32,247 nucleotides of DNA from a virus (IMGVR_UViG_3300030110_001999:1-32247), one strand, 5' to 3'; shown: positions 1 to 32,176, counted from the stretch's first letter. Notes: generated by a model not told the origin, from the sequence alone. Numbers and translations are program-made.

Positions 1-72
1 ATTAATATATTCTTTTTTTAATAAATCATCAGATAAATTTTTTATTATTGAGGCTTTTAGTTTTTTAATCAT
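1..72 (-). CDS. 5' fragment of the Cys-His-Asp protein gene (copy of 32105-32176)
   Basis: The ATG at 72-70 opens a frame that runs off the left edge after 24 codons. It is base-for-base the same as the start of the 113-residue gene at 31835-32176. On a closed circle this is one gene, and the fragment here only reflects where the contig was cut. The ATG overlaps the TGA of the DUF5664 gene (ATGA), so the two are probably translationally coupled. Confidence 0.85.
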   Translation of the reverse strand, partial: MIKKLKASIIKNLSDDLLKKEYIN

Positions 73-143
73 TCTGTACCTGATATTATTTGATCGTGTG
101 GTATTCTGTAAGTTCCAAACTGTTCATCATAACCCTCATCAAA
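1..143. repeat. Left copy of terminal overlap
   Basis: Bases 1-143 match 32105-32247. The first 77 positions are identical. Mismatches are at 78, 93, 106, 112, 113, 114, 138 and 140. This is the pattern of a circular genome whose contig ends were assembled from two sequence variants. A genuine diverged terminal repeat or tandem duplication is less likely, because the duplicated stretch is cut mid-gene at both ends. Confidence 0.9.
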
Positions 144-431
144 CTTATCTCCTTCTATTTCTTTTTGTAAGTGTGCTAATGCTCTCCAAGCTATTTTTGC
201 TGAGTGTCTTACTCCGTCTATATCGTGCATACCATTTTCCATTAGGTGTCGCATCAATGCATCTAAATCATCGCTACTCTTTTCTCTGTCCCAATGTATA
301 TCCTCGTCTGGGTGATGTTGTTTAGATCCTATGTAGCTTACTCGTGCGACTTCGCATAGTGCATCAGGAAAGTATTTTATTAGTCCTTTATATAAGGGTA
401 TCTCTTTTCTCTTTTTGTTGTTCTTTTCCAT
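69..431 (-). CDS. DUF5664 / dATP-dGTP diphosphohydrolase-like protein
   Basis: A 120-residue soluble protein that I recognise as the phage DUF5664 type, named in databases after the N-terminal region of dATP/dGTP diphosphohydrolase. Visible landmarks are a GLIKYFPDALCEVARVS block (about 16-32), then WDREKSSDDLDALMRHL (about 48-64) with acidic residues suited to binding metal and nucleotide, and a second helical part with HSAKIAWRAL (about 76-85). The likely role is trimming the dNTP pool in favour of phage replication or modified-base synthesis; this is family inference, and no catalytic assignment can be proven here. The start overlaps the preceding gene by 44 nt and the stop overlaps the next start as ATGA. 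The last 24 codons exist in a second, slightly different version at 32173-32247 (D to H, T to D, R to K), so two alleles are present. Confidence 0.7.
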   Translation of the reverse strand: MEKNNKKRKEIPLYKGLIKYFPDALCEVARVSYIGSKQHHPDEDIHWDREKSSDDLDALMRHLMENGMHDIDGVRHSAKIAWRALAHLQKEIEGDKFDEGYDEQFGTYRIPHDQIISGTE

Positions 432-828
432 CTATATCTTTTAAGGGTAATGTATCTACTATCATCAAAAGTTTCTTTAAGTCCTTTTCTTTTGTGTAGT
501 CTATTATGTGGTTTATTAATGCTCTTCTTAATTTTGATTTGTTTTTTACTCTTAGTAAAACTATATCAAAATATTTATCTAATTTCGGATTGTATCTTCT
601 GTTCATTTCAAAGGCTTTTAGACTATGAATTGCAGTAGCGTGATTGTATTTCTTTCCTTTAGAAATGTAAAAATCTTTTATTTGGTGAAATGTCATTCTA
701 CAATGATGTCTTAACATAAAAGTAAGCAAACTTCTTACCTCTACATATTCTCTTTTTCTACTATTTTTAAATACATCTATTCCAGATATATCTATAATGT
801 TCTTTGCAATTTTATTTGCTTCTTTCAT
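388..828 (-). CDS. Stand-alone DnaA domain-IV-like DNA-binding protein
   Basis: 146 residues. Residues about 22-75 (SRKREYVEVRSLLTFMLR, then an Ig-like helix, then NHATAIHSLKAF) follow the layout of the C-terminal DNA-binding domain of DnaA: a basic R-K-R-x-Y-V-E-x-R-S helix, a helix-turn-helix, and an H-A-T-A-I-H signature in place of DnaA's D-H-S/T-T-V-x-H-A. There is no AAA+ ATPase part, so it can bind DNA but not assemble as DnaA does. The rest is a basic helical tail. It may mark the phage origin for host replication proteins, compete for host DnaA boxes, or act as a regulator. It overlaps the methyltransferase gene upstream by 17 nt and DUF5664 downstream by 44 nt, so all three are likely co-translated. 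Confidence 0.65.
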   Translation of the reverse strand: MKEANKIAKNIIDISGIDVFKNSRKREYVEVRSLLTFMLRHHCRMTFHQIKDFYISKGKKYNHATAIHSLKAFEMNRRYNPKLDKYFDIVLLRVKNKSKLRRALINHIIDYTKEKDLKKLLMIVDTLPLKDIDGKEQQKEKRDTLI

Positions 829-1462
829 AAATTCTTTTATTAATTATTTTACAATATTTATTATCTATTTCATAACTGATAGTATTATAACCTAAATCAT
901 AAGCAACTTTACTTGTTGTGCCACTTCCTGCAAATACATCAATAATAATTTGATTTTCTTTTGCTGTAGTTTTTATGATCTTACTGATCAGCTCTTCAGG
1001 TATTTGACAAGGGTGTTCTGTCTTTTCCTTGCTTACATTTTTGACTTGATTGATATTCCACCAATCATAAAGTTTTGCACCTGTTTTACCCTCTGCTATT
1101 CTTTTTTGAATTCGCTTGTCGTTTAAATTTTTATAAGGTTGTCTTACTTTTCTAAAGTCAGGCTTACAACCCCACCAACTTATTAATCTACTTTGTTTGC
1201 CCGTATTACTATTGTAAACCCAACATACAACTTGTTCACATTTTACTTTTAGAGCTTTAGGTAAAAGGTTTATTGTTTCTTCTGGATAATGAATAATAAC
1301 GCAAGGTGTAGGTATTTTAGATAACAAATCTATATAGTCATCTTCTGAAATTCTATCTTTGTATCCATTGTAATGGTAACCTTGATTGTAAGGCGGATCT
1401 GTAATTGTCAATCCTTTAGGAACTATACAATCTCTAAAATCTTTATTTATTATTGAAATCAT
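812..1462 (-). CDS. Beta-class site-specific DNA methyltransferase
   Basis: 216 residues. The catalytic motif IV DPPY is at 22-25 and the S-adenosylmethionine-binding motif I (DVFAGSGTT) is at 175-183. That order, catalytic motif first and SAM motif last, defines the beta group of amino-methyltransferases (N6-adenine or N4-cytosine). DPPY favours N6-adenine but does not prove it. HPCQIPEEL (150-158) is the conserved helix before motif I in this group. The protein is short, with a small target-recognition insert between about 30 and 150. No cognate restriction enzyme is adjacent, so protection against host restriction is the likely role. It overlaps the RecE-like gene by 4 nt (ATGA). Confidence 0.88.
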   Translation of the reverse strand: MISIINKDFRDCIVPKGLTITDPPYNQGYHYNGYKDRISEDDYIDLLSKIPTPCVIIHYPEETINLLPKALKVKCEQVVCWVYNSNTGKQSRLISWWGCKPDFRKVRQPYKNLNDKRIQKRIAEGKTGAKLYDWWNINQVKNVSKEKTEHPCQIPEELISKIIKTTAKENQIIIDVFAGSGTTSKVAYDLGYNTISYEIDNKYCKIINKRIYERSK

Positions 1463-5162: not shown

Positions 5163-6057
5163 TTTTTAGTTGTTTTTTAGATCTATACTTAATTAAGTTT
5201 TTACCACCTATTTCAAATCCTACATTGTTTAATATTGATTTAAACATAATTGGTTGTTCGTGACTTGTCGGTTTATAGCCCATCGAAATTTCCTTCACTT
5301 TACATACATAAAGTCTTGTGTACATCCAAGCATCAGGTGAACTTATGTACCTATGTACTACCAAAAAATCATCAGATCGGTTTCCGTTTACGGCACCACC
5401 TTCAGAATCTCCTAAACTCGGAGGAGGTACTTGTCCACCAAATTCGTGATTAGGGGAATGCTTACGGCGCAGGCTCTCTGTCACAGCGTGCGCACATATC
5501 CAAGTTGATATATTATATTTTTTACAGAAAAGTCTTATCTCGGTTAAGCATTCATAACTGTATTCATAACCGTTTGTATTTCTTAAATCTTTTCTTAAAG
5601 AGTTTATAGGATCGATTAATAATCCGTCATAATCCCAAGCATCCTTAACTTTTTCAGCTAAGTCTAATAATTCTTTATAAGTGTATTGTCTATTTATGTC
5701 AACAAACTTAAAATGATTATATACTAACTCTTTTGATTTTTCGTAATCTTTTTCTTCTATTTTGTTTATTGGTTTACCTTCTAAGAATTCAATAAGTTTT
5801 TTGATAAGTTGAACAGGATCGTTCTCACTTGAAAAAACTAACCATCTTATTTTATGCTTAATTGTATATAGTAACATTAAATAAAATGTAAAATGTGTTT
5901 TACCTACGTTATTATGTCCCAGAATAAAATTCATATTTCCAGCAACAAAACGAAAGCTAGCGTCTAGCTCTTTATTACCTAGCTTTAACGCCTCTTTAAC
6001 TTTACCTTTTCTAAAGTCGTTTAGTTTGTCTATATGTTCATCGTAATTTATAAGCAT
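5137..6057 (-). CDS. RecA/DnaB-like P-loop ATPase (putative replicative helicase)
   Basis: 306 residues. Walker A GHNNVGKT is at 47-54, Walker B GLLIDP at 145-150 and the sensor-like WICAH at 186-190. A DnaB-type motif follows at 217-236 (GDSEGG, NRSDDFLVVHR), resembling the 'SGAIEQDADVVLFLHR' region of hexameric helicases. It lacks a primase or an N-terminal DnaB domain. It probably unwinds DNA at the fork or acts as a RepA/gp41-like helicase recruiting host primase and polymerase, since no phage polymerase is present. Its ATG touches the T tract of a terminator-like hairpin (6058-6082), so expression may depend on read-through. No later Met gives a plausible start before the Walker A loop except M42. 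Confidence 0.75.
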   Translation of the reverse strand: MLINYDEHIDKLNDFRKGKVKEALKLGNKELDASFRFVAGNMNFILGHNNVGKTHFTFYLMLLYTIKHKIRWLVFSSENDPVQLIKKLIEFLEGKPINKIEEKDYEKSKELVYNHFKFVDINRQYTYKELLDLAEKVKDAWDYDGLLIDPINSLRKDLRNTNGYEYSYECLTEIRLFCKKYNISTWICAHAVTESLRRKHSPNHEFGGQVPPPSLGDSEGGAVNGNRSDDFLVVHRYISSPDAWMYTRLYVCKVKEISMGYKPTSHEQPIMFKSILNNVGFEIGGKNLIKYRSKKQLKIDNPRKAS

Positions 6058-6082
6058 AAAAAAAGGGGGTAGTTAGCCCCCC
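6058..6082 (-). terminator. Terminator-like hairpin abutting a start codon
   Basis: On the minus strand, GGGGGG, a 7-nt loop region, CCCCC, then seven T and immediately ATG of the ATPase gene. The hairpin and T tract satisfy intrinsic-terminator rules and follow the SSB gene. With no space for a promoter before the next ATG, it may be a partial terminator or attenuator setting the SSB-to-helicase ratio. Confidence 0.7.
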
Positions 6083-6087
6083 TATAT

Positions 6088-6429
6088 TTAAAATGGTAAG
6101 TCATCTTCTCTATCTGGAGACTGAGCCTCCACCGCAACTTCTTCTCTGTACTCTCTTACTCTCCAACCTTGTAAGCTAGTAAACCAAAGGGTTTTTCCCT
6201 CTCTGTTTTCCCAAGCTCTACCCCTTACATTGTAAAACACCTCTACAGTATTACCAACTTTACAAACAGAGTCATCTAGTAATCCGACATTATTGTTTGT
6301 AAAATCTAAAGCTACTACTTGAGGATATTTCTCGATCGTTTCTATAATTAATTTTCTTACTCTAAAAGTTCCTTTTTCTTCTATTTGAGTAATTTGTTGC
6401 ACTTTTCCTTTAATTGACATTTGATTCAT
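6088..6429 (-). CDS. DUF3127-like single-stranded DNA-binding protein
   Basis: 113 residues. An OB-fold-like N-terminal part is at 4-95 (MSIKGKVQQITQIEEKG, RVRKLIIET, VVALDFTNN, GNTVEVFYNVRGRAWENREGKTLWFTSLQGWRV), followed by an acidic tail ending in DREDDLPF. The DDLPF terminus is the classic SSB tail that docks replication proteins. The DUF3127 family is the usual SSB of Bacteroidetes phages. Translation could begin at M1 or M4. It sits 3 nt after the preceding OB-like gene and is followed by the hairpin at 6058-6082. Confidence 0.85.
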   Translation of the reverse strand: MNQMSIKGKVQQITQIEEKGTFRVRKLIIETIEKYPQVVALDFTNNNVGLLDDSVCKVGNTVEVFYNVRGRAWENREGKTLWFTSLQGWRVREYREEVAVEAQSPDREDDLPF

Positions 6430-6432
6430 TTT

Positions 6433-6789
6433 TTATTTGTTTATAAAATCTATTAATAATTGACTATCCGCTAAAACTGTATGGATGTCTGATTGTGGAC
6501 GACTGCTGTGGAATTCACAAGAAGCCTTTACCATTGATTGACGAATAATAAGTTGTTCTTTACTATTGTTGTTTACTGTAGGTTGAGGGTTATACTCTAG
6601 CTTGGCTGTTTTGTATTCCTCGTTTGTTACTTTGTATTCAACCATTTCTCCGACAGACTTTTTAAAATCTCCTTTGGCTAAGAACTGAAATTCTCTACCA
6701 TCGTCGAATCTAACTTGATACTTGTTAAAAACTCCAGAAGCGTTTGAATATTCGCCTCTAGGAATTATGTGGGTTATTTTTCCTTTCAT
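6433..6789 (-). CDS. OB-fold-like DNA-metabolism protein
   Basis: 118 residues in two parts. Residues 1-60 (MKGKITHIIPRGEYSNASGV, VRFDDGREFQFLAKG, VGEMVEYKVT) look like a small OB-type barrel. Residues 75-118 form a helical domain (KEQLIIRQSMVKASCEF ... HTVLADSQLLIDFI) resembling C-terminal parts of phage proteins near SSB. It may bind single-stranded DNA or be a helicase-associated factor; the substrate is not evident. It is the middle gene of the 6883-6088 unit that follows a promoter-like site at 6898-6927. Confidence 0.55.
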   Translation of the reverse strand: MKGKITHIIPRGEYSNASGVFNKYQVRFDDGREFQFLAKGDFKKSVGEMVEYKVTNEEYKTAKLEYNPQPTVNNNSKEQLIIRQSMVKASCEFHSSRPQSDIHTVLADSQLLIDFINK

Positions 6790-6883
6790 AATTTAATTGT
6801 TGTGTTAATTGATTAATTTTAAACTCCATAGCTTGTATTCTTCTATAATACATTTCTATGAGTTCGTCTTTTGGTGTTTTCAT
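6758..6883 (-). CDS. 41-residue protein, unknown function
   Basis: The frame begins MKTPKDELIEMYYRRIQAME and continues as an amphipathic helix (FKINQLTQQLNYER). It ends 32 nt inside the next gene. It is the first frame downstream of the promoter-like element at 6898-6927 and ahead of the SSB genes. It looks like a small coiled coil. The position immediately after a promoter and the start/stop overlap favour a real gene, but no family is recognised. Confidence 0.5.
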   Translation of the reverse strand: MKTPKDELIEMYYRRIQAMEFKINQLTQQLNYERKNNPHNS

Positions 6884-6897
6884 AATTTTAGTTTTCC

Positions 6898-6927
6898 TAA
6901 AGTTATAAAAAATATTTTAAATGCAAA
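6898..6927 (-). promoter_or_regulatory. Candidate Bacteroidetes-type promoter for SSB operon
   Basis: On the minus strand, TTTG (6927-6924), an 18-nt spacer, then TAACTTTA (6905-6898), 7 of 8 to the Bacteroidetes -7 box TAnnTTTG. It sits between the terminator at 6939-6972 and the first small gene at 6883, just where a promoter is needed. Confidence 0.55.
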
Positions 6928-6938
6928 CTATTGTTAAT

Positions 6939-6972
6939 AAAAAAAAGAGGCTTACCGAAATAAACCCCTTTT
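6939..6972 (-). terminator. Intrinsic terminator after ninG-like gene
   Basis: On the minus strand, a 12-bp stem (AAAAGGGGTTTA with TAAGCCTCTTTT, two wobble pairs) and loop TTTCGG, followed by a run of T. It ends the NinG-like transcript 19 nt after its stop codon. Confidence 0.85.
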
Positions 6973-8310: not shown

Positions 8311-8768
8311 TAGTATAATTCGTATTTTGTTTTCCCGTTTTCTCTTATAGCTCTAAGCACTCTGTTTCTGTTTTCTTTTTTACTCACATAAGAAACGTGA
8401 ATCCAATCTGGATTATCATTAGTACCAAATTCATATATTAACTGATCGAAGTCTAAATTTTCTCTTATGTACTGAAACATCTCAAAATTTGTTTTATGTC
8501 CAAATACATCATCTATGTCAATTGCTTGTCCTTTACAATGCTGTGAATTTGTACTTCCACCTATAGCAGTATTAACTTCTGGACTTCTAAAAAAAGATGT
8601 AATCTTTATAGCTCCCCCCACATACATTCTAAGAGGCTCAAATATAAAATCGGCAATTTTGTACATATTATCTAATTGGTTGTCGTTAGGTGTGTTATTT
8701 AAGCCCCTACGTTTAGCTGTAGCACTATGAACTGCTTCTTTATAAGATATGTGTTTACTTATTTGCAT
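8310..8768 (-). CDS. Peptidase M15-type endolysin
   Basis: 152 residues from the ATG at 8768 (MQISKHISYKEAVHSATAKR), the usual opening of this family. A 16-codon longer frame reads across the upstream gene's end and is not used. Zinc and catalytic residues are visible: SxHxxGxAxD at 75-84 (H77, D84), E113 in IYEFG and H124 in DWIHVSY. This is the D-Ala-D-Ala carboxypeptidase / L-Ala-D-Glu endopeptidase type that cuts peptide cross-links of peptidoglycan. It has no signal peptide, so release depends on the holin two genes downstream. Confidence 0.88.
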   Translation of the reverse strand: MQISKHISYKEAVHSATAKRRGLNNTPNDNQLDNMYKIADFIFEPLRMYVGGAIKITSFFRSPEVNTAIGGSTNSQHCKGQAIDIDDVFGHKTNFEMFQYIRENLDFDQLIYEFGTNDNPDWIHVSYVSKKENRNRVLRAIRENGKTKYELY

Positions 8769-8770
8769 TA

Positions 8771-8914
8771 TTACATATTTGTTGGTTCGGGCATATTTAC
8801 TTCGGGAATATCGCATTTATCTAAGTTAAATGTAAATTTATAAATTAACGCATTCCATTTACGTTTTAATATGCAACAATAATTTTTAAAATTATCTTTT
8901 ATTTTTTGTATCAT
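8771..8914 (-). CDS. 47-residue basic protein, unknown
   Basis: It overlaps the beta-barrel gene's stop by 4 nt (ATGA) and ends 2 nt before the endolysin ATG. The basic, aromatic N-terminal half (MIQKIKDNFKNYCCILKRKW) is followed by a short acidic Pro-rich end (DIPEVNMPEPTNM). C13, C14 and C34 are present. The region around 11-30 is amphipathic and could sit on the membrane. The position between envelope protein and endolysin suggests a lysis accessory; this is inference. Confidence 0.55.
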   Translation of the reverse strand: MIQKIKDNFKNYCCILKRKWNALIYKFTFNLDKCDIPEVNMPEPTNM

Positions 8915-10251
8915 AATCTAAAGTTTATACCAGCTGAGGTGTTAAATATTTCACTATCCCAGAACTTTGTGTATTCTCCCTCAACAAAGAAACCTAAAGT
9001 TCTACTTAATTTCCAACCCATAATAAAACCTGCTTGATAATCACTCCATTGCTCTGGCGATGAATCTTCTTTTAATCCACCTAATCCCCAATTATTACGA
9101 TTTAAATAGTTAAAATCTGAATCTCCTTTAAAATATTTGTGATAAGGTAATATCCAATTTGCGTAAGAATGTATCCAGAATTTACTTCTTTGGTGATAAA
9201 AATCAAAACCAATAATAGGAGCATATTCTGCATAAGGATCTAAAGTGTCCCATATTTCATTATTATATCTATTCATCAATCCACCAAATATTTCATCTCT
9301 AAATTGCAAGTCTGTATAAGCTACGATTTCACCTTGAGAATTAATCCAATACCAGTCCGACATTTCATTTCCATACTGATCAGTAGAAGTGTAATATATA
9401 TCATCATATCCATACATAAAACCTAAACTATACCAAGCATTAACAGGATACTCAAAAACATTACCTTGAGAGTCTGTATATGAATCAGTTTCATTTAACC
9501 ATATTTCAATAGGATTATAACCATACGCTTTTTGATGTGTTCTAGCAATAACTCCCCCAGAAATACTAAACTTTTTACCAATAGGTAATCTTAATCTTGC
9601 CTCTGCTGATTGATATTTGAAACCTACGTTTCCCTGTTCTCTTTGTTCTAATTTTACAATATGGTTTTTTCCTGTATGTCTTATAAAATATCTTGAGTTA
9701 GTAAATGTTTCTCCTCTACGTCTTTCTTTTTCAAAATGTAATAAATACTCAAATCCTTGCACAGCTGCGGTTGGAGCTGATAATGACTTATTGTTTTCTG
9801 TTCCATCATAATAATGCTTGGCTTTTATTTCATAATCAAATCTTGCTAATTTTCTAAAACCAAAACCAACTCTATAATCAAAAGGGTGATATATTGTTTC
9901 ATCTATTACTTGAGGTACATCATAAAGGTTTTCTGGATTTGTTCTTACAAAGTAATCTTTTCGTTGTTGTTCATAAGAGTTTCTCCCATCTCCTGCTACA
10001 TATAAAGTTCCATATTTAAAAAACTCTTTATATATATCCTTAAAGAATGTTTTTTTTCTTTTTAATGGCTCTTGTGTTATTACTTGTGCAGATGTTCCAA
10101 CAAACACAAACATTAAAATTAGTGCAATAAGTTTTTTTTGTTTTTGGATAAGTTTAAAAGTAAAATACAAAACACTTAAAATAAATGCTAGGTGAATTAA
10201 ATTTAAATGACTTTCTCCACATATTCCTAAAATGTGATTTATTATTTCCAT
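8911..10251 (-). CDS. Phage-encoded outer-membrane beta-barrel-like protein
   Basis: 446 residues. The N-terminus has two hydrophobic segments: about 16-34 (after MEIINHILGICGESH) and 39-56 (KKLIALILMFVFVGTSAQ, which reads as a full signal peptide ending at A-Q). The mature part is rich in aromatic, alternating beta strands (DYRVGFGFRKLARFDYEIKAKHYY; RLPIGKKFSISGGVIAR; WSDYQAGFIMGWKLSRTLGFFVEGEY). It ends in SAGINFRL, consistent with a barrel insertion signal. A family of this kind occurs in marine Bacteroidetes phages, but its role is not known to me. Possibilities are outer-membrane disruption at lysis, receptor masking or superinfection exclusion. It lies between a secreted thioredoxin-like protein (2 nt apart) and the lysis genes. 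Confidence 0.6.
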   Translation of the reverse strand: MEIINHILGICGESHLNLIHLAFILSVLYFTFKLIQKQKKLIALILMFVFVGTSAQVITQEPLKRKKTFFKDIYKEFFKYGTLYVAGDGRNSYEQQRKDYFVRTNPENLYDVPQVIDETIYHPFDYRVGFGFRKLARFDYEIKAKHYYDGTENNKSLSAPTAAVQGFEYLLHFEKERRRGETFTNSRYFIRHTGKNHIVKLEQREQGNVGFKYQSAEARLRLPIGKKFSISGGVIARTHQKAYGYNPIEIWLNETDSYTDSQGNVFEYPVNAWYSLGFMYGYDDIYYTSTDQYGNEMSDWYWINSQGEIVAYTDLQFRDEIFGGLMNRYNNEIWDTLDPYAEYAPIIGFDFYHQRSKFWIHSYANWILPYHKYFKGDSDFNYLNRNNWGLGGLKEDSSPEQWSDYQAGFIMGWKLSRTLGFFVEGEYTKFWDSEIFNTSAGINFRL

Positions 10252-28847: not shown

Positions 28848-29696
28848 TTATAAACCACAATATCCAGAATCACAATCATTAAAGTCATCTTCAAATAATG
28901 GTAATTGTTTAAAGCTATTTTTTATTTGTTCGTATGTTACTCCATTTTTGAATGTTCTTACATTATACCCTGTATCTTTTTCTTGTTCTATAAACCAATC
29001 AAATTTGTTTGGATGCTTTTCAGACATTAGTTTTAATAATGCAGGATTTCTATGAAAACAACCAATACAATTATTCATATATGCAAATCTAACTGGCTTA
29101 TCTTTCCAATAGCTTTCTATATCATCTTTCCATATTTGATTTTTAATTAATGGAAATTCAGGTTTTTGCCATTCTATATCAGCCCATTTGTTTTGAGTTT
29201 TTCTTTTACCAACTATTGCTTTAAAAGTTGATAAACCATTTTTGTTTAATTTAGATAGCATTGTTTTAGCTCTCTTTTGTTCGTTTACTCTATATCCTAT
29301 TCTTGTAGCTATTGGTTTGCCTATTTCTTTTTGCCACCATTCAAATATTGGTTTTAATTTCATTTCAGTTGTACAAAATCTTTGTGTAACATTTGGTAAA
29401 TATGTTTTGCCATTTCTATTTATAACTTTGTCAAATGTTTTGCCTGTTACCCAAGTTATCTTTCTTCCTATGTATTGTTCTAAGTCTAGCATAGTGTAGA
29501 TTATCATATCATCTTCTAAAGTTCCAATAAACTCTGTCCCTAATTTGTCTGATACTTCTTGTCGTATTTTAGAATCAGGAAACATACAATTCTTATCATC
29601 AGTTCTAACTAATGCGAAAACATCATAATCAGCAGGGTAATGTGCAGCTATGTATGCTGAGGTTTTGCCACCACTAATCGAGTTTACTGTTTTCAT
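28848..29696 (-). CDS. PAPS-reductase-like PP-loop ATPase, possible Fe-S protein
   Basis: 282 residues. The PP-loop SISGGKTSAY (6-15; SGGKTS at 8-13) begins an adenine-nucleotide alpha-hydrolase domain. RFCTTEMKLKP (106-116, C108) is the conserved second motif of phage PAPS-reductase-like proteins. Further Cys at C210 and C213 (NNCIGCFHR) and C275/C280 (CDSGYC) could complete an iron-sulfur site with C108, as in DndC-type proteins. The enzyme would adenylate or sulfurate a substrate; in this neighbourhood DNA base or backbone modification is a reasonable guess. No DndD/E-like or cysteine desulfurase gene is present, so a complete phosphorothioation system is not encoded. It overlaps the Dam-type gene by 23 nt. 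Confidence 0.75.
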   Translation of the reverse strand: MKTVNSISGGKTSAYIAAHYPADYDVFALVRTDDKNCMFPDSKIRQEVSDKLGTEFIGTLEDDMIIYTMLDLEQYIGRKITWVTGKTFDKVINRNGKTYLPNVTQRFCTTEMKLKPIFEWWQKEIGKPIATRIGYRVNEQKRAKTMLSKLNKNGLSTFKAIVGKRKTQNKWADIEWQKPEFPLIKNQIWKDDIESYWKDKPVRFAYMNNCIGCFHRNPALLKLMSEKHPNKFDWFIEQEKDTGYNVRTFKNGVTYEQIKNSFKQLPLFEDDFNDCDSGYCGL

Positions 29697-30120
29697 CTAA
29701 TTGTTTTAAAATTACTATCATACTATCGTGCATTGCTCCTTTGTCAACTACTCTTTCTCCAAATGTATTAACTCCTATAAACTTTACTCTGCCTTTTATA
29801 AATCGTATTTCTTTTTTGTTTGGGAGTATGTAATCGTGAAATAGTACACTGCTTGTAGAAACGGGAATTAATAAAACACAGAGTTTCCCTTTGTTAGATT
29901 CTTCAATTGCTTTTTTTACAAATTTTCCTTTTAGTTTTCTGCTGTAGGGAGGATTGATAAAGTTTCTTTCTTTCCATTCTATTTTTAGTCCATCCCATTT
30001 AGTAATGTCGTGATTTATGGGACACGGATCAAAATTAAAATCAAACTCTTCATTTAACTTGTTATAAAGTTCTTTAGGCGTTTCCCAGTGGTTGCTATTA
30101 GTTCTTATCTTGTATTTCAT
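29674..30120 (-). CDS. Phage Dam-type DNA N6-adenine methyltransferase
   Basis: 148 residues. Landmarks of the phage DNA N-6-adenine-methyltransferase family: HWETPKELYNKLNEEFDFNF (11-30), DPCP (31-34), DGLKIEW and the catalytic FINPPYS (54-60). This compact family has no separate target-recognition domain and methylates short sites. It ends within the start of the PAPS-reductase-like gene and follows a 40-residue gene with which it overlaps by 23 nt, so it is part of the modification block. Confidence 0.88.
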   Translation of the reverse strand: MKYKIRTNSNHWETPKELYNKLNEEFDFNFDPCPINHDITKWDGLKIEWKERNFINPPYSRKLKGKFVKKAIEESNKGKLCVLLIPVSTSSVLFHDYILPNKKEIRFIKGRVKFIGVNTFGERVVDKGAMHDSMIVILKQLDENSKLD

Positions 30121-30220
30121 CTAATTGTTTTTTTATTTGTTCTACATTATGATAAATTATAGCAACTATGTTCTCTAATCTTTTTATTCTTTGTATTGTG
30201 GTGTATTTTTTGTTTACCAT
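30098..30220 (-). CDS. 40-residue helical protein
   Basis: Frame MVNKKYTTIQRIKRLENIVA continuing as an amphipathic helix (YHNVEQIKKQLDEIQ). Its start overlaps the methyltransferase end by 7 nt and its stop lies 23 nt inside the Dam-type gene. It fits coupled translation. It looks like a short coiled coil; function unknown. Confidence 0.5.
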   Translation of the reverse strand: MVNKKYTTIQRIKRLENIVAIIYHNVEQIKKQLDEIQDKN

Positions 30221-30900
30221 AGTCTGCCTTGTTGTTTATGTTGTTCTATTCGTTTCTTTGCTGCTTCAAAGTATTCTTTATCTATTTCGTATCCTGTAAA
30301 GTCAAAGCCTAAATTATGACAAGCGATCGCAGTAGTGCCACTTCCTAAATATATATCTAAAACTTTAAGGTTTTGTGGAAAACATTTTAATATGTCTGAA
30401 ACCATTTCTAATGGATAAGCTCTTTTGTGCTTCTTTTTTGTTCCGACAGATTTCCAATAGTTAACATCACTTAAATTTAAATTGTTTGTAAATTTAGTTT
30501 TTTTTTGTTTTGACATCCAATATATTCTTTCACTAAATGGATAAAACCTTATCTTATCGAAGTTTTGACTTCTGTTAACCCATACCAATTCTTGTTTAAT
30601 TTTCCATTTAGTTTTTAATAACCATTCATAAGGAGATATTTGAAAGCCATTCCTAATTCTGTTTTTATGATTATAAAAAACACTACCATCATCTTTTATA
30701 ATTCTAAACAACTCGTTTAGTATGTTTATTTGATTGTGTTGATATTCATCTTCAGGATAGTCATCTTTATATGGAGTAAAATATTTCTTACCTGTATGAT
30801 GTTTTTTACCTAAATTGTATGGAGGGCTTGTAATACATATATCAAAAGTATTATCCTTAATCTCTTTCATAGCTTCCATACAGTCTTGGTTGTATATCAT
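30214..30900 (-). CDS. Beta-class DNA methyltransferase (SPPY type)
   Basis: 228 residues. TSPPYNLGK (24-32) is the catalytic motif and LDIYLGSGTTAIA (181-193) the SAM-binding motif, the catalytic motif coming first (beta group). SPPY is most common in N4-cytosine enzymes but also occurs in N6-adenine ones, so the base is undecided. The middle (about 35-160) is the target-recognition part with KTKWKIKQELVWVNRSQNFD. AYPLEMVSDILKCF is the conserved helix before motif I. It adjoins the Mom-like gene (stop and start directly abut). No restriction partner. Confidence 0.88.
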   Translation of the reverse strand: MIYNQDCMEAMKEIKDNTFDICITSPPYNLGKKHHTGKKYFTPYKDDYPEDEYQHNQINILNELFRIIKDDGSVFYNHKNRIRNGFQISPYEWLLKTKWKIKQELVWVNRSQNFDKIRFYPFSERIYWMSKQKKTKFTNNLNLSDVNYWKSVGTKKKHKRAYPLEMVSDILKCFPQNLKVLDIYLGSGTTAIACHNLGFDFTGYEIDKEYFEAAKKRIEQHKQQGRLW

Positions 30901-31842
30901 TTAAAATAATTCTGTTTGTGTTGTTGTTTTATAACTCGTATCGTAGTTTGTGTTTTGTCCTTTTGGGTATGGTAAAGAACTATATTTAAAATTGTTTATT
31001 ATTTGTTTTTTCAAACTTCTATTTGCTTTTATATAAATATATCTATTTTTAGGCAATATGTTTATTTTAGTAAGATCTAACTTTTTAATAATTTCTTTTA
31101 CATCTGCAACCCATTCGTAGCTCATCATCACAGCATCATATTTGTTATCTAAACTTAATAATTCTTTTAATCTTATCCAATCATCTATATTTGGAAAACT
31201 AAAATATTTGTCAGTTCTAAACCAATGCCCAGCAGTATCTTTATACCCAAATTCTAAATCTAATTGTTTTGCCGTCCATTCTCCTTTATGCTCTCTTAAA
31301 TAATTTGCAATTTCTTCTTTTTTTATTTTATCCTCATCTAATCTTCTTTTAATTAGTTTTACGTTTAGCCTGTTGTTTTTTTGATAGTGTCCTATGTTTC
31401 TAAAATGAAATTCGTTTCCATCTTTATCAATGTACATACTATCATTTGTGGTTTTACCTGTATATAAAAAATTTGTTGCCTGATATATATAACCTGTGTG
31501 ATTCATATTGTTATCTGAAAATGAAACAATTATTTTATTGTTAGGTAATTTTTTTATACTGTTAGATACAAAATAACTTAGAGCGTTTTTTTCTAAACCA
31601 TCATTAACTACTAATCTATTCAATTCTATTACAAGATTAGAATACTCTTTACCTGCTATTGATTCTGCAAGTGTAGAGCTGGGAGGCATACCAAAGGTGA
31701 TAACACCTACTAATATGTTTTTATAAAACAAACCAAAAGAATACATAATATTAGGAATACGTTTTGCATAATGTTTGTACAACAACCACTCTTTGCAAAG
31801 TTCTTTTTTTATAGATTTTACTTTATAGGTTTCTTTAATCAT
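30901..31842 (-). CDS. Mom-like adenine-modification protein with extra C-terminal region
   Basis: 313 residues. About 15-130 matches the phage Mom family (GNAT-like adenine N6-methylcarbamoylation): HYAKRIPNIMYSFGLF (24-39), LVGVITFGMPPS (44-55), VIELNRLVVNDGLEKNALSYFV (71-92), IIVSFSDNNMNHTGYIYQAT (104-123) and FLYTGKT. The Mu enzyme modifies adenine to block host restriction. A further region at about 165-250 (winged-helix-like, with GHWFRTDKYFSFPNIDDWIR) may guide target recognition, and the end (KNRYIYIKANR, then PYPKGQ) closes the protein. It overlaps the Cys-His-Asp gene by 8 nt. The catalytic assignment is by family pattern. Confidence 0.8.
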   Translation of the reverse strand: MIKETYKVKSIKKELCKEWLLYKHYAKRIPNIMYSFGLFYKNILVGVITFGMPPSSTLAESIAGKEYSNLVIELNRLVVNDGLEKNALSYFVSNSIKKLPNNKIIVSFSDNNMNHTGYIYQATNFLYTGKTTNDSMYIDKDGNEFHFRNIGHYQKNNRLNVKLIKRRLDEDKIKKEEIANYLREHKGEWTAKQLDLEFGYKDTAGHWFRTDKYFSFPNIDDWIRLKELLSLDNKYDAVMMSYEWVADVKEIIKKLDLTKINILPKNRYIYIKANRSLKKQIINNFKYSSLPYPKGQNTNYDTSYKTTTQTELF

Positions 31843-32176
31843 TTAATATCTTGTTTATTAGTTTCTTGCTTCGTTTAGATGGTTGTTTTGTAAGAAAAAA
31901 ACCTCTTACAGCATTTTGATAATTAACTGGTGTTTTAAATTGTTTGTATGTTAAATCAATTATATTATCTAAATTATCTTTTAAAAACCAGTGTGTAGTG
32001 TTTTCGTGTTTTATATGATAAACTTTAAGGTTTTCATTTGACAAGTGATAATAAGTTTCACTCGCTATATAACAATGCCCTGTGTACCTGTTTTTATTAG
32101 GTAAATTAATATATTCTTTTTTTAATAAATCATCAGATAAATTTTTTATTATTGAGGCTTTTAGTTTTTTAATCAT
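31835..32176 (-). CDS. Cys-His-Asp protein coupled to the Mom-like gene
   Basis: 113 residues. Pattern GHCYIASETYYHL (C35), HENTTHWFLKDNLDNIIDLT (H62, D74) and RGFFLTKQPSKRS. A Cys in a helix start, then His and Asp on following strands, is the order of papain/transglutaminase-like folds, so an acyl-transfer or amidase reaction is possible. I recall the same protein type next to Mom-family genes in other phages, which would suggest a joint role in base hypermodification, but no function is established to my knowledge. The stop overlaps the Mom start by 8 nt. On the circular genome it follows the DUF5664 gene as ATGA. Confidence 0.7.
   Translation of the reverse strand: MIKKLKASIIKNLSDDLLKKEYINLPNKNRYTGHCYIASETYYHLSNENLKVYHIKHENTTHWFLKDNLDNIIDLTYKQFKTPVNYQNAVRGFFLTKQPSKRSKKLINKILND

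Follow-up and report, generated by a model that had tools for sequence, protein, structure and literature searches.

The genome of a marine phage, known from an IMG/VR virus record of 32,247 bases (IMGVR_UViG_3300030110_001999; the whole stretch analysed is called the window here), encodes side by side a Mom-family DNA-adenine modification enzyme and a small YunG-like Cys-His-Asp protein. Because close relatives of the latter are built into Mom in other phages, the two probably work together, and we consider that they probably protect the phage DNA jointly. There is good support for Mom and YunG as a functional unit. For the more specific reading, in which the two form one DNA-modification unit and the YunG-like cysteine enzyme acts on the group handled by Mom by forming or cleaving an acyl or amide bond, we put the probability at about 0.5. 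The chemistry of such a pair is perhaps not yet described. The pair bears on two questions, the source of the amide in the Mom modification and its possible diversification among Mom-type phages.

Results

All recognisable genes of the window lie on the minus strand, and the nearest match of its terminase is in Flavobacterium phages (48%). The two contig ends (1-143 and 32105-32247) share a 143-nt overlap (94.4% identity). A sister contig that is 99% identical (L001) spans the junction, its genes there being, in order, the dATP/dGTP-hydrolase-like gene, the Cys-His-Asp gene and Mom. Closing the contig, as claimed in an earlier note made from the sequence, is therefore justified, and the genes at 69-2232 thus lie upstream of the Mom block. 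Given only this level of identity between its ends, the record is probably a merger of strains whose genome is circularly permuted or terminally redundant. Following transcription, the closed contig encodes, in this order, a PDDEXK exonuclease, a DPPY methyltransferase, a DnaA-C-like protein, a dATP/dGTP-hydrolase-like protein, the YunG-like protein, Mom, an SPPY methyltransferase, a Dam-type methyltransferase, a PAPS-like protein, the small terminase (assigned by position and sequence only) and the large terminase. The methyltransferase and the nucleotide-hydrolase-like gene that had been placed upstream after closing were both found across the junction: the DPPY N6/N4 DNA methyltransferase (812..1462; PF01555, 1.2e-27) lies three genes upstream of the YunG-like gene, and the dATP/dGTP diphosphohydrolase N-terminal-like protein (69..431; PF18909, 4.5e-11) is encoded directly upstream of it, a junction seen in L001. 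The gene for the DnaA-C-like protein (388-828) is likewise upstream across the junction.

The five minus-strand open reading frames described in the earlier note are all in place, each with a family match. They encode the YunG-like Cys-His-Asp protein, of predicted papain-like fold (31835..32176, 113 aa; phrog_12251, 1e-10; PF24585, 2.3e-4, below cut-off), the Mom-family enzyme, of GNAT fold and split by a helical insert (30901..31842, 313 aa; PF25680, 8e-34; phrog_1384, 4e-58), and three proteins of variable cassette genes, namely an SPPY N6/N4 DNA methyltransferase (30214..30900, 228 aa; PF01555 (N6_N4_Mtase), 1.5e-27), a Dam-type N6-adenine methyltransferase (29674..30120, 148 aa; PF05869, 4.9e-20) and a PAPS-reductase-like protein with an SGGKTS motif (28848..29696, 282 aa; phrog_424, 1.6e-24). 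The Cys-His-Asp gene and Mom overlap by exactly 8 nt, as had been reported. The description of all five genes as consecutive and overlapping applies to this joint and to that between Dam and PAPS (23 nt), but not to the others, as Mom and SPPY abut and 93 nt separate SPPY from Dam.

Comparison with near-identical sisters rules out the five-gene block of the earlier note as one unit. In L001, which is 99% identical over Mom, Mom is followed by the small terminase, and the SPPY, Dam and PAPS genes are missing; in another sister (L002), a methyltransferase occupies the YunG slot and Mom and Dam are present; two more (L003 and L004) carry Mom and PAPS. The block is thus a shuffled set of DNA-modification cassettes, and SPPY-Dam-PAPS is a removable cassette, whose natural loss can be seen at L001:1499-1824, where Mom, ~100 nt from the intergenic stretch and the small terminase follow one another. 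The Moms of L002-L004 are 95% identical to the window's and come without YunG, so that Mom, judging from these sequences, works without YunG, which is an optional accessory.

The Mom of phage Mu turns adenine into N6-carbamoylmethyl-adenine; it has a GNAT fold and binds acetyl-CoA and iron. The window's Mom scores 117.4 bits against PF25680 (curated cut-off 27.1) over residues 6-178 and matches Mu Mom in PDB 8bv8, whose title describes the inactive S124A mutant, with an E-value of 2.9e-11. Residue S89 (31576-31578) aligns with the Ala of the 8bv8 sequence, which we mapped to Mu Mom S124 according to our reading of the 241-residue numbering of that entry. Among Mom relatives, S89, H24, Y25 and Y120 are invariant (56/56), D110 is present in 55/56 and R76 is likewise conserved; by this alignment, the catalytic positions of the window's Mom are intact. 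The fold was compared on the predicted structure of a fused relative, L058, to which the window's Mom is 67% identical. This model superposes on 8bv8 with Z 18.9 over 197 residues at 3.6 A, the GNAT-like Mom fold being kept across the YunG insert. No Mom core residue separates YunG-bearing from YunG-less phages among the 56 relatives compared, and the idea of such a residue as a marker was dropped. NCBIfam holds no model that fits YunG or Mom. Elsewhere, one phage region carries three Mom paralogues (L005:5995-9848, at 5995-6939, 8440-9138 and 9180-9848), and a Mom at L083:3530-4939 is extended at its N-terminus by ~250 residues for which neither Pfam nor PHROG gave a family match. A DruA-like protein (L215:4996-5700; Pfam, 2.3e-7), whose gene has a YunG-like gene nearby, is recognised by the Mom profile as well (E 7e-5), and this double match may reflect a distant kinship of DruA and Mom.

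Between the Mom core and the last strand lies the helical 'GHWFR' insert of ~100 residues (~residues 163-255; 31078..31356, minus strand), which is absent from Mu Mom and from short Mom relatives. It is homologous (E 2e-9) to the insert or recognition region of a C5-cytosine methyltransferase encoded at L021:7129-8472, itself identified by Pfam DNA_methylase (1e-72). This homology suggests that the insert is probably a DNA-recognition domain, and since the domain is common to long Moms and to the methyltransferase recognition region, Mom may have borrowed it. In relatives with an internal YunG domain, this domain is inserted at the N-terminal border of the recognition insert, at ~residue 161 of the window's Mom.

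The Cys-His-Asp protein belongs, by its sequence matches, to the large YunG-like family (PF24585 superfamily, phrog_12251). It scores 21.7 bits against a PF24585 cut-off of 27, and for this reason we call it YunG-like only; the homologues in L083 and L096 exceed the cut-off (30.7 and 27.6 bits in a DNA search). The putative triad consists of C35 (32072-32074), H62 (31991-31993) and D74 (31955-31957). In an alignment of 45 diverse homologues, the GHC, HW and D.T..Q motif is conserved, with H34, C35, Y36, H62, W63, D74, T76 and Q79 invariant, and the gene is under purifying selection (dN/dS 0.05-0.28). B. subtilis was the sole control genome matching YunG, and we found no activity or function for any member of the family, B. 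subtilis YunG included. Relatives in named phages amount to 33 records, mostly Caulobacter phages. Some family members are fused to NUDIX, GNAT, deaminase, ART or mCpol domains, and a single protein at L168:1742-3796 combines mCpol (minimal CRISPR polymerase), YunG-like and GNAT domains.

The confident AlphaFold2 model of the YunG-like protein (pLDDT 94.9) places C35 at the start of helix 35-46, H62 in strand 60-66 and D74 just after strand 72-73. At the level of predicted secondary structure, this is the papain-like layout, with Cys at a helix N-terminus and His and then Asp on or beside neighbouring strands. The closest structural neighbour, LapG, is a weak match (Z 5.1, 87 residues, 3.5 A), as are MepS, a C39 peptidase, Tse1, a papain-like toxin and staphopain (all Z <=5.1). 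A Foldseek search of the PDB with the model gave no significant match, and a sequence search of the PDB with the protein returned nothing. As most of the structural matches, though weak, come from one superfamily, we read the protein as a putative papain-like cysteine enzyme.

The association with Mom was surveyed in an IMG/VR census of the best 80 of 496 YunG relatives, using a Mom profile within 6 kb. Mom was present in 22/80 of these loci, and in 19/19 of those whose YunG is at least 60% identical to the window's. The earlier note had held that a Cys-His-Asp family occurring mostly without Mom would speak against the pair; this is the situation in the broad family, with 58/80 loci lacking a Pfam-type Mom within 6 kb and Mom in 0/5 of the named phage records checked, but not in the window's own branch. 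Its proposal of a functional pair gains from the complete co-occurrence among close loci, from two types of fusion and from overlapping neighbours. In one type (L057-L068 and L070, the last lacking its start), the Mom chain is interrupted by the YunG domain at one loop of the GNAT fold. Internal insertion of this kind accounts for most of the 19 close loci. L039 probably belongs to this internal-insertion type; as its contig ends inside YunG, we dropped it as a distinct C-terminal fusion. The other type is an N-terminal YunG-Mom fusion in one chain of a different phage (L096; PF25680, 2.5e-45; PF24585, 1.6e-5). Its YunG lies far from the window's branch on the YunG tree, and by this placement the fusion arose independently.

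In L087 and L083, YunG and Mom are separate genes, and in 13 further loci YunG overlaps a Mom-like/GIY-YIG gene. The N-terminal half of the latter is remotely related to Mom (hhalign probability 92%, E 5e-7), and its C-terminal half proved to be GIY-YIG in the one member scanned. This arrangement is found at L071:5992-7840, where a Gp23 capsid gene adjoins, and at 12 similar loci. On the YunG tree, which has many unresolved forks, the Mom label needs at least 4 changes. The co-occurrence in close loci, the fusions, the overlaps and the Mom fold kept in L058 together indicate an association beyond neighbourhood chance. Outside the Mom branches, a comparison of near and far genes yielded no steady YunG partner. 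Acetyltransf_1 was encoded by 6/127 near genes versus 2/143 far genes and Acetyltransf_10 by 5 near versus 3 far genes, counts that are suggestive, not decisive, and a general YunG-GNAT link was set aside.

Discussion

The main rival to a shared chemistry is that the YunG-like domain has a separate anti-defence or host-takeover activity, as a cysteine peptidase, deamidase or amidase acting on a host protein. It would accompany Mom because each of them counters restriction early, and the fusions would be polyvalent proteins whose parts share no chemistry. The close structural neighbours of the domain are peptidases and amidases, the family also contributes to phage proteins of several domains, among them NUDIX, GNAT, ART, deaminase and mCpol, and among the best 80 of 496 relatives it occurs mostly without Mom. 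However, the YunG domain is inserted in the Mom fold repeatedly, in many phages, and the couplings in L096 and in the Mom-like-GIY-YIG group are independent ones. Both observations speak for a shared substrate or location, and we regard this rival as rather unlikely.

Control or maturation of Mom, for example by processing it or inhibiting it until late infection, would make sense of the partnership with no role in DNA chemistry, as Mom expression is toxic, and the 8-nt gene overlap does suggest translational coupling. Yet near-identical Moms manage without YunG, the triad is conserved and of a catalytic type, and the fusions keep both domains in one chain; such control is improbable. That the two genes are chance neighbours in a hot spot of anti-restriction cassettes is largely refuted, even though sister phages differ in which methyltransferases, PAPS-like and other genes surround Mom. 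Mom is rare, occurring in ~0.6% of named phage records (292/50,697), and nevertheless accompanies all 19 close relatives of the window's YunG in the census, with at least 3 separate associations that include insertion in the chain.

The reading that we prefer is a single DNA-modification unit. Mom, with its GNAT fold and guided by a methyltransferase-type recognition insert, would place a carbamoylmethyl-type group on N6 of adenine, and the YunG-like domain, a compact papain- or transglutaminase-type cysteine enzyme, would make or break an acyl or amide bond in this group. Papain-type Cys-His-Asp enzymes make or break acyl and amide bonds via a thioester. This chemistry, together with the coupling to Mom, suggests that the likeliest role of the YunG-like protein is on the carboxamide or on the acyl donor. 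We infer that the cysteine is catalytic and that its substrate is the Mom group; the YunG-like domain could hydrolyse or exchange the carboxamide after transfer, or make the donor before it, and in either order it would widen the range of modifications through a second step that is optional. As the broad family is found mostly without Mom and fused to NUDIX, GNAT, deaminase or mCpol domains, the chemistry of the domain need not be specific to Mom. More tentatively, the YunG-like enzyme could turn the Mom carboxamide into another group, such as an acid or a substituted amide, in a previously undescribed two-step hypermodification of adenine. A limited search found no paper linking Mom with a papain-like or YunG domain, and an earlier mention is possible. 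If the second step is true, a new modification chemistry would be added to phage anti-restriction. A cysteine-enzyme domain within the Mom fold offers a direct handle on this question, since the gene pair or the fused polypeptide allows the product to be compared with and without the cysteine.

Compared with Mu Mom (PF25680; 8bv8), the window's enzyme has the same GNAT-like fold, as predicted for the fused relative L058, the aligned serine and the conserved H24, Y25, R76, D110 and Y120. It differs in its recognition-type insert of ~100 residues and in its YunG-like partner, or internal YunG domain in relatives, neither of which exists in Mu Mom. Mom thereby appears as a modular enzyme in which a single loop accommodates both a recognition domain of methyltransferase type and a second domain of catalytic type. 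With the YunG family (PF24585; B. subtilis YunG), the small protein shares the GxC ... HW ... DxT..QF motif and length, although it scores below the Pfam cut-off. Papain-like enzymes such as LapG/BTLCP, NlpC/P60 MepS, the C39 peptidase and the T6SS amidase Tse1 have the same Cys-His-Asp order, a Cys at a helix start and His and Asp on or next to neighbouring strands. In contrast to these, the YunG-like protein has ~110 residues and weak structural scores (Z 5.1 or less), and it belongs to an intracellular phage context in which its gene adjoins that of a DNA-modifying enzyme. Mom domains fused to endonucleases have been described in jumbo phages (PMC7824862), and the Mom-like-GIY-YIG genes downstream of YunG may be of this Mom-nuclease kind. 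In both cases Mom is a modular domain joined to another activity; here, however, the partner is papain-like rather than a nuclease, and in relatives it is inserted within Mom itself.
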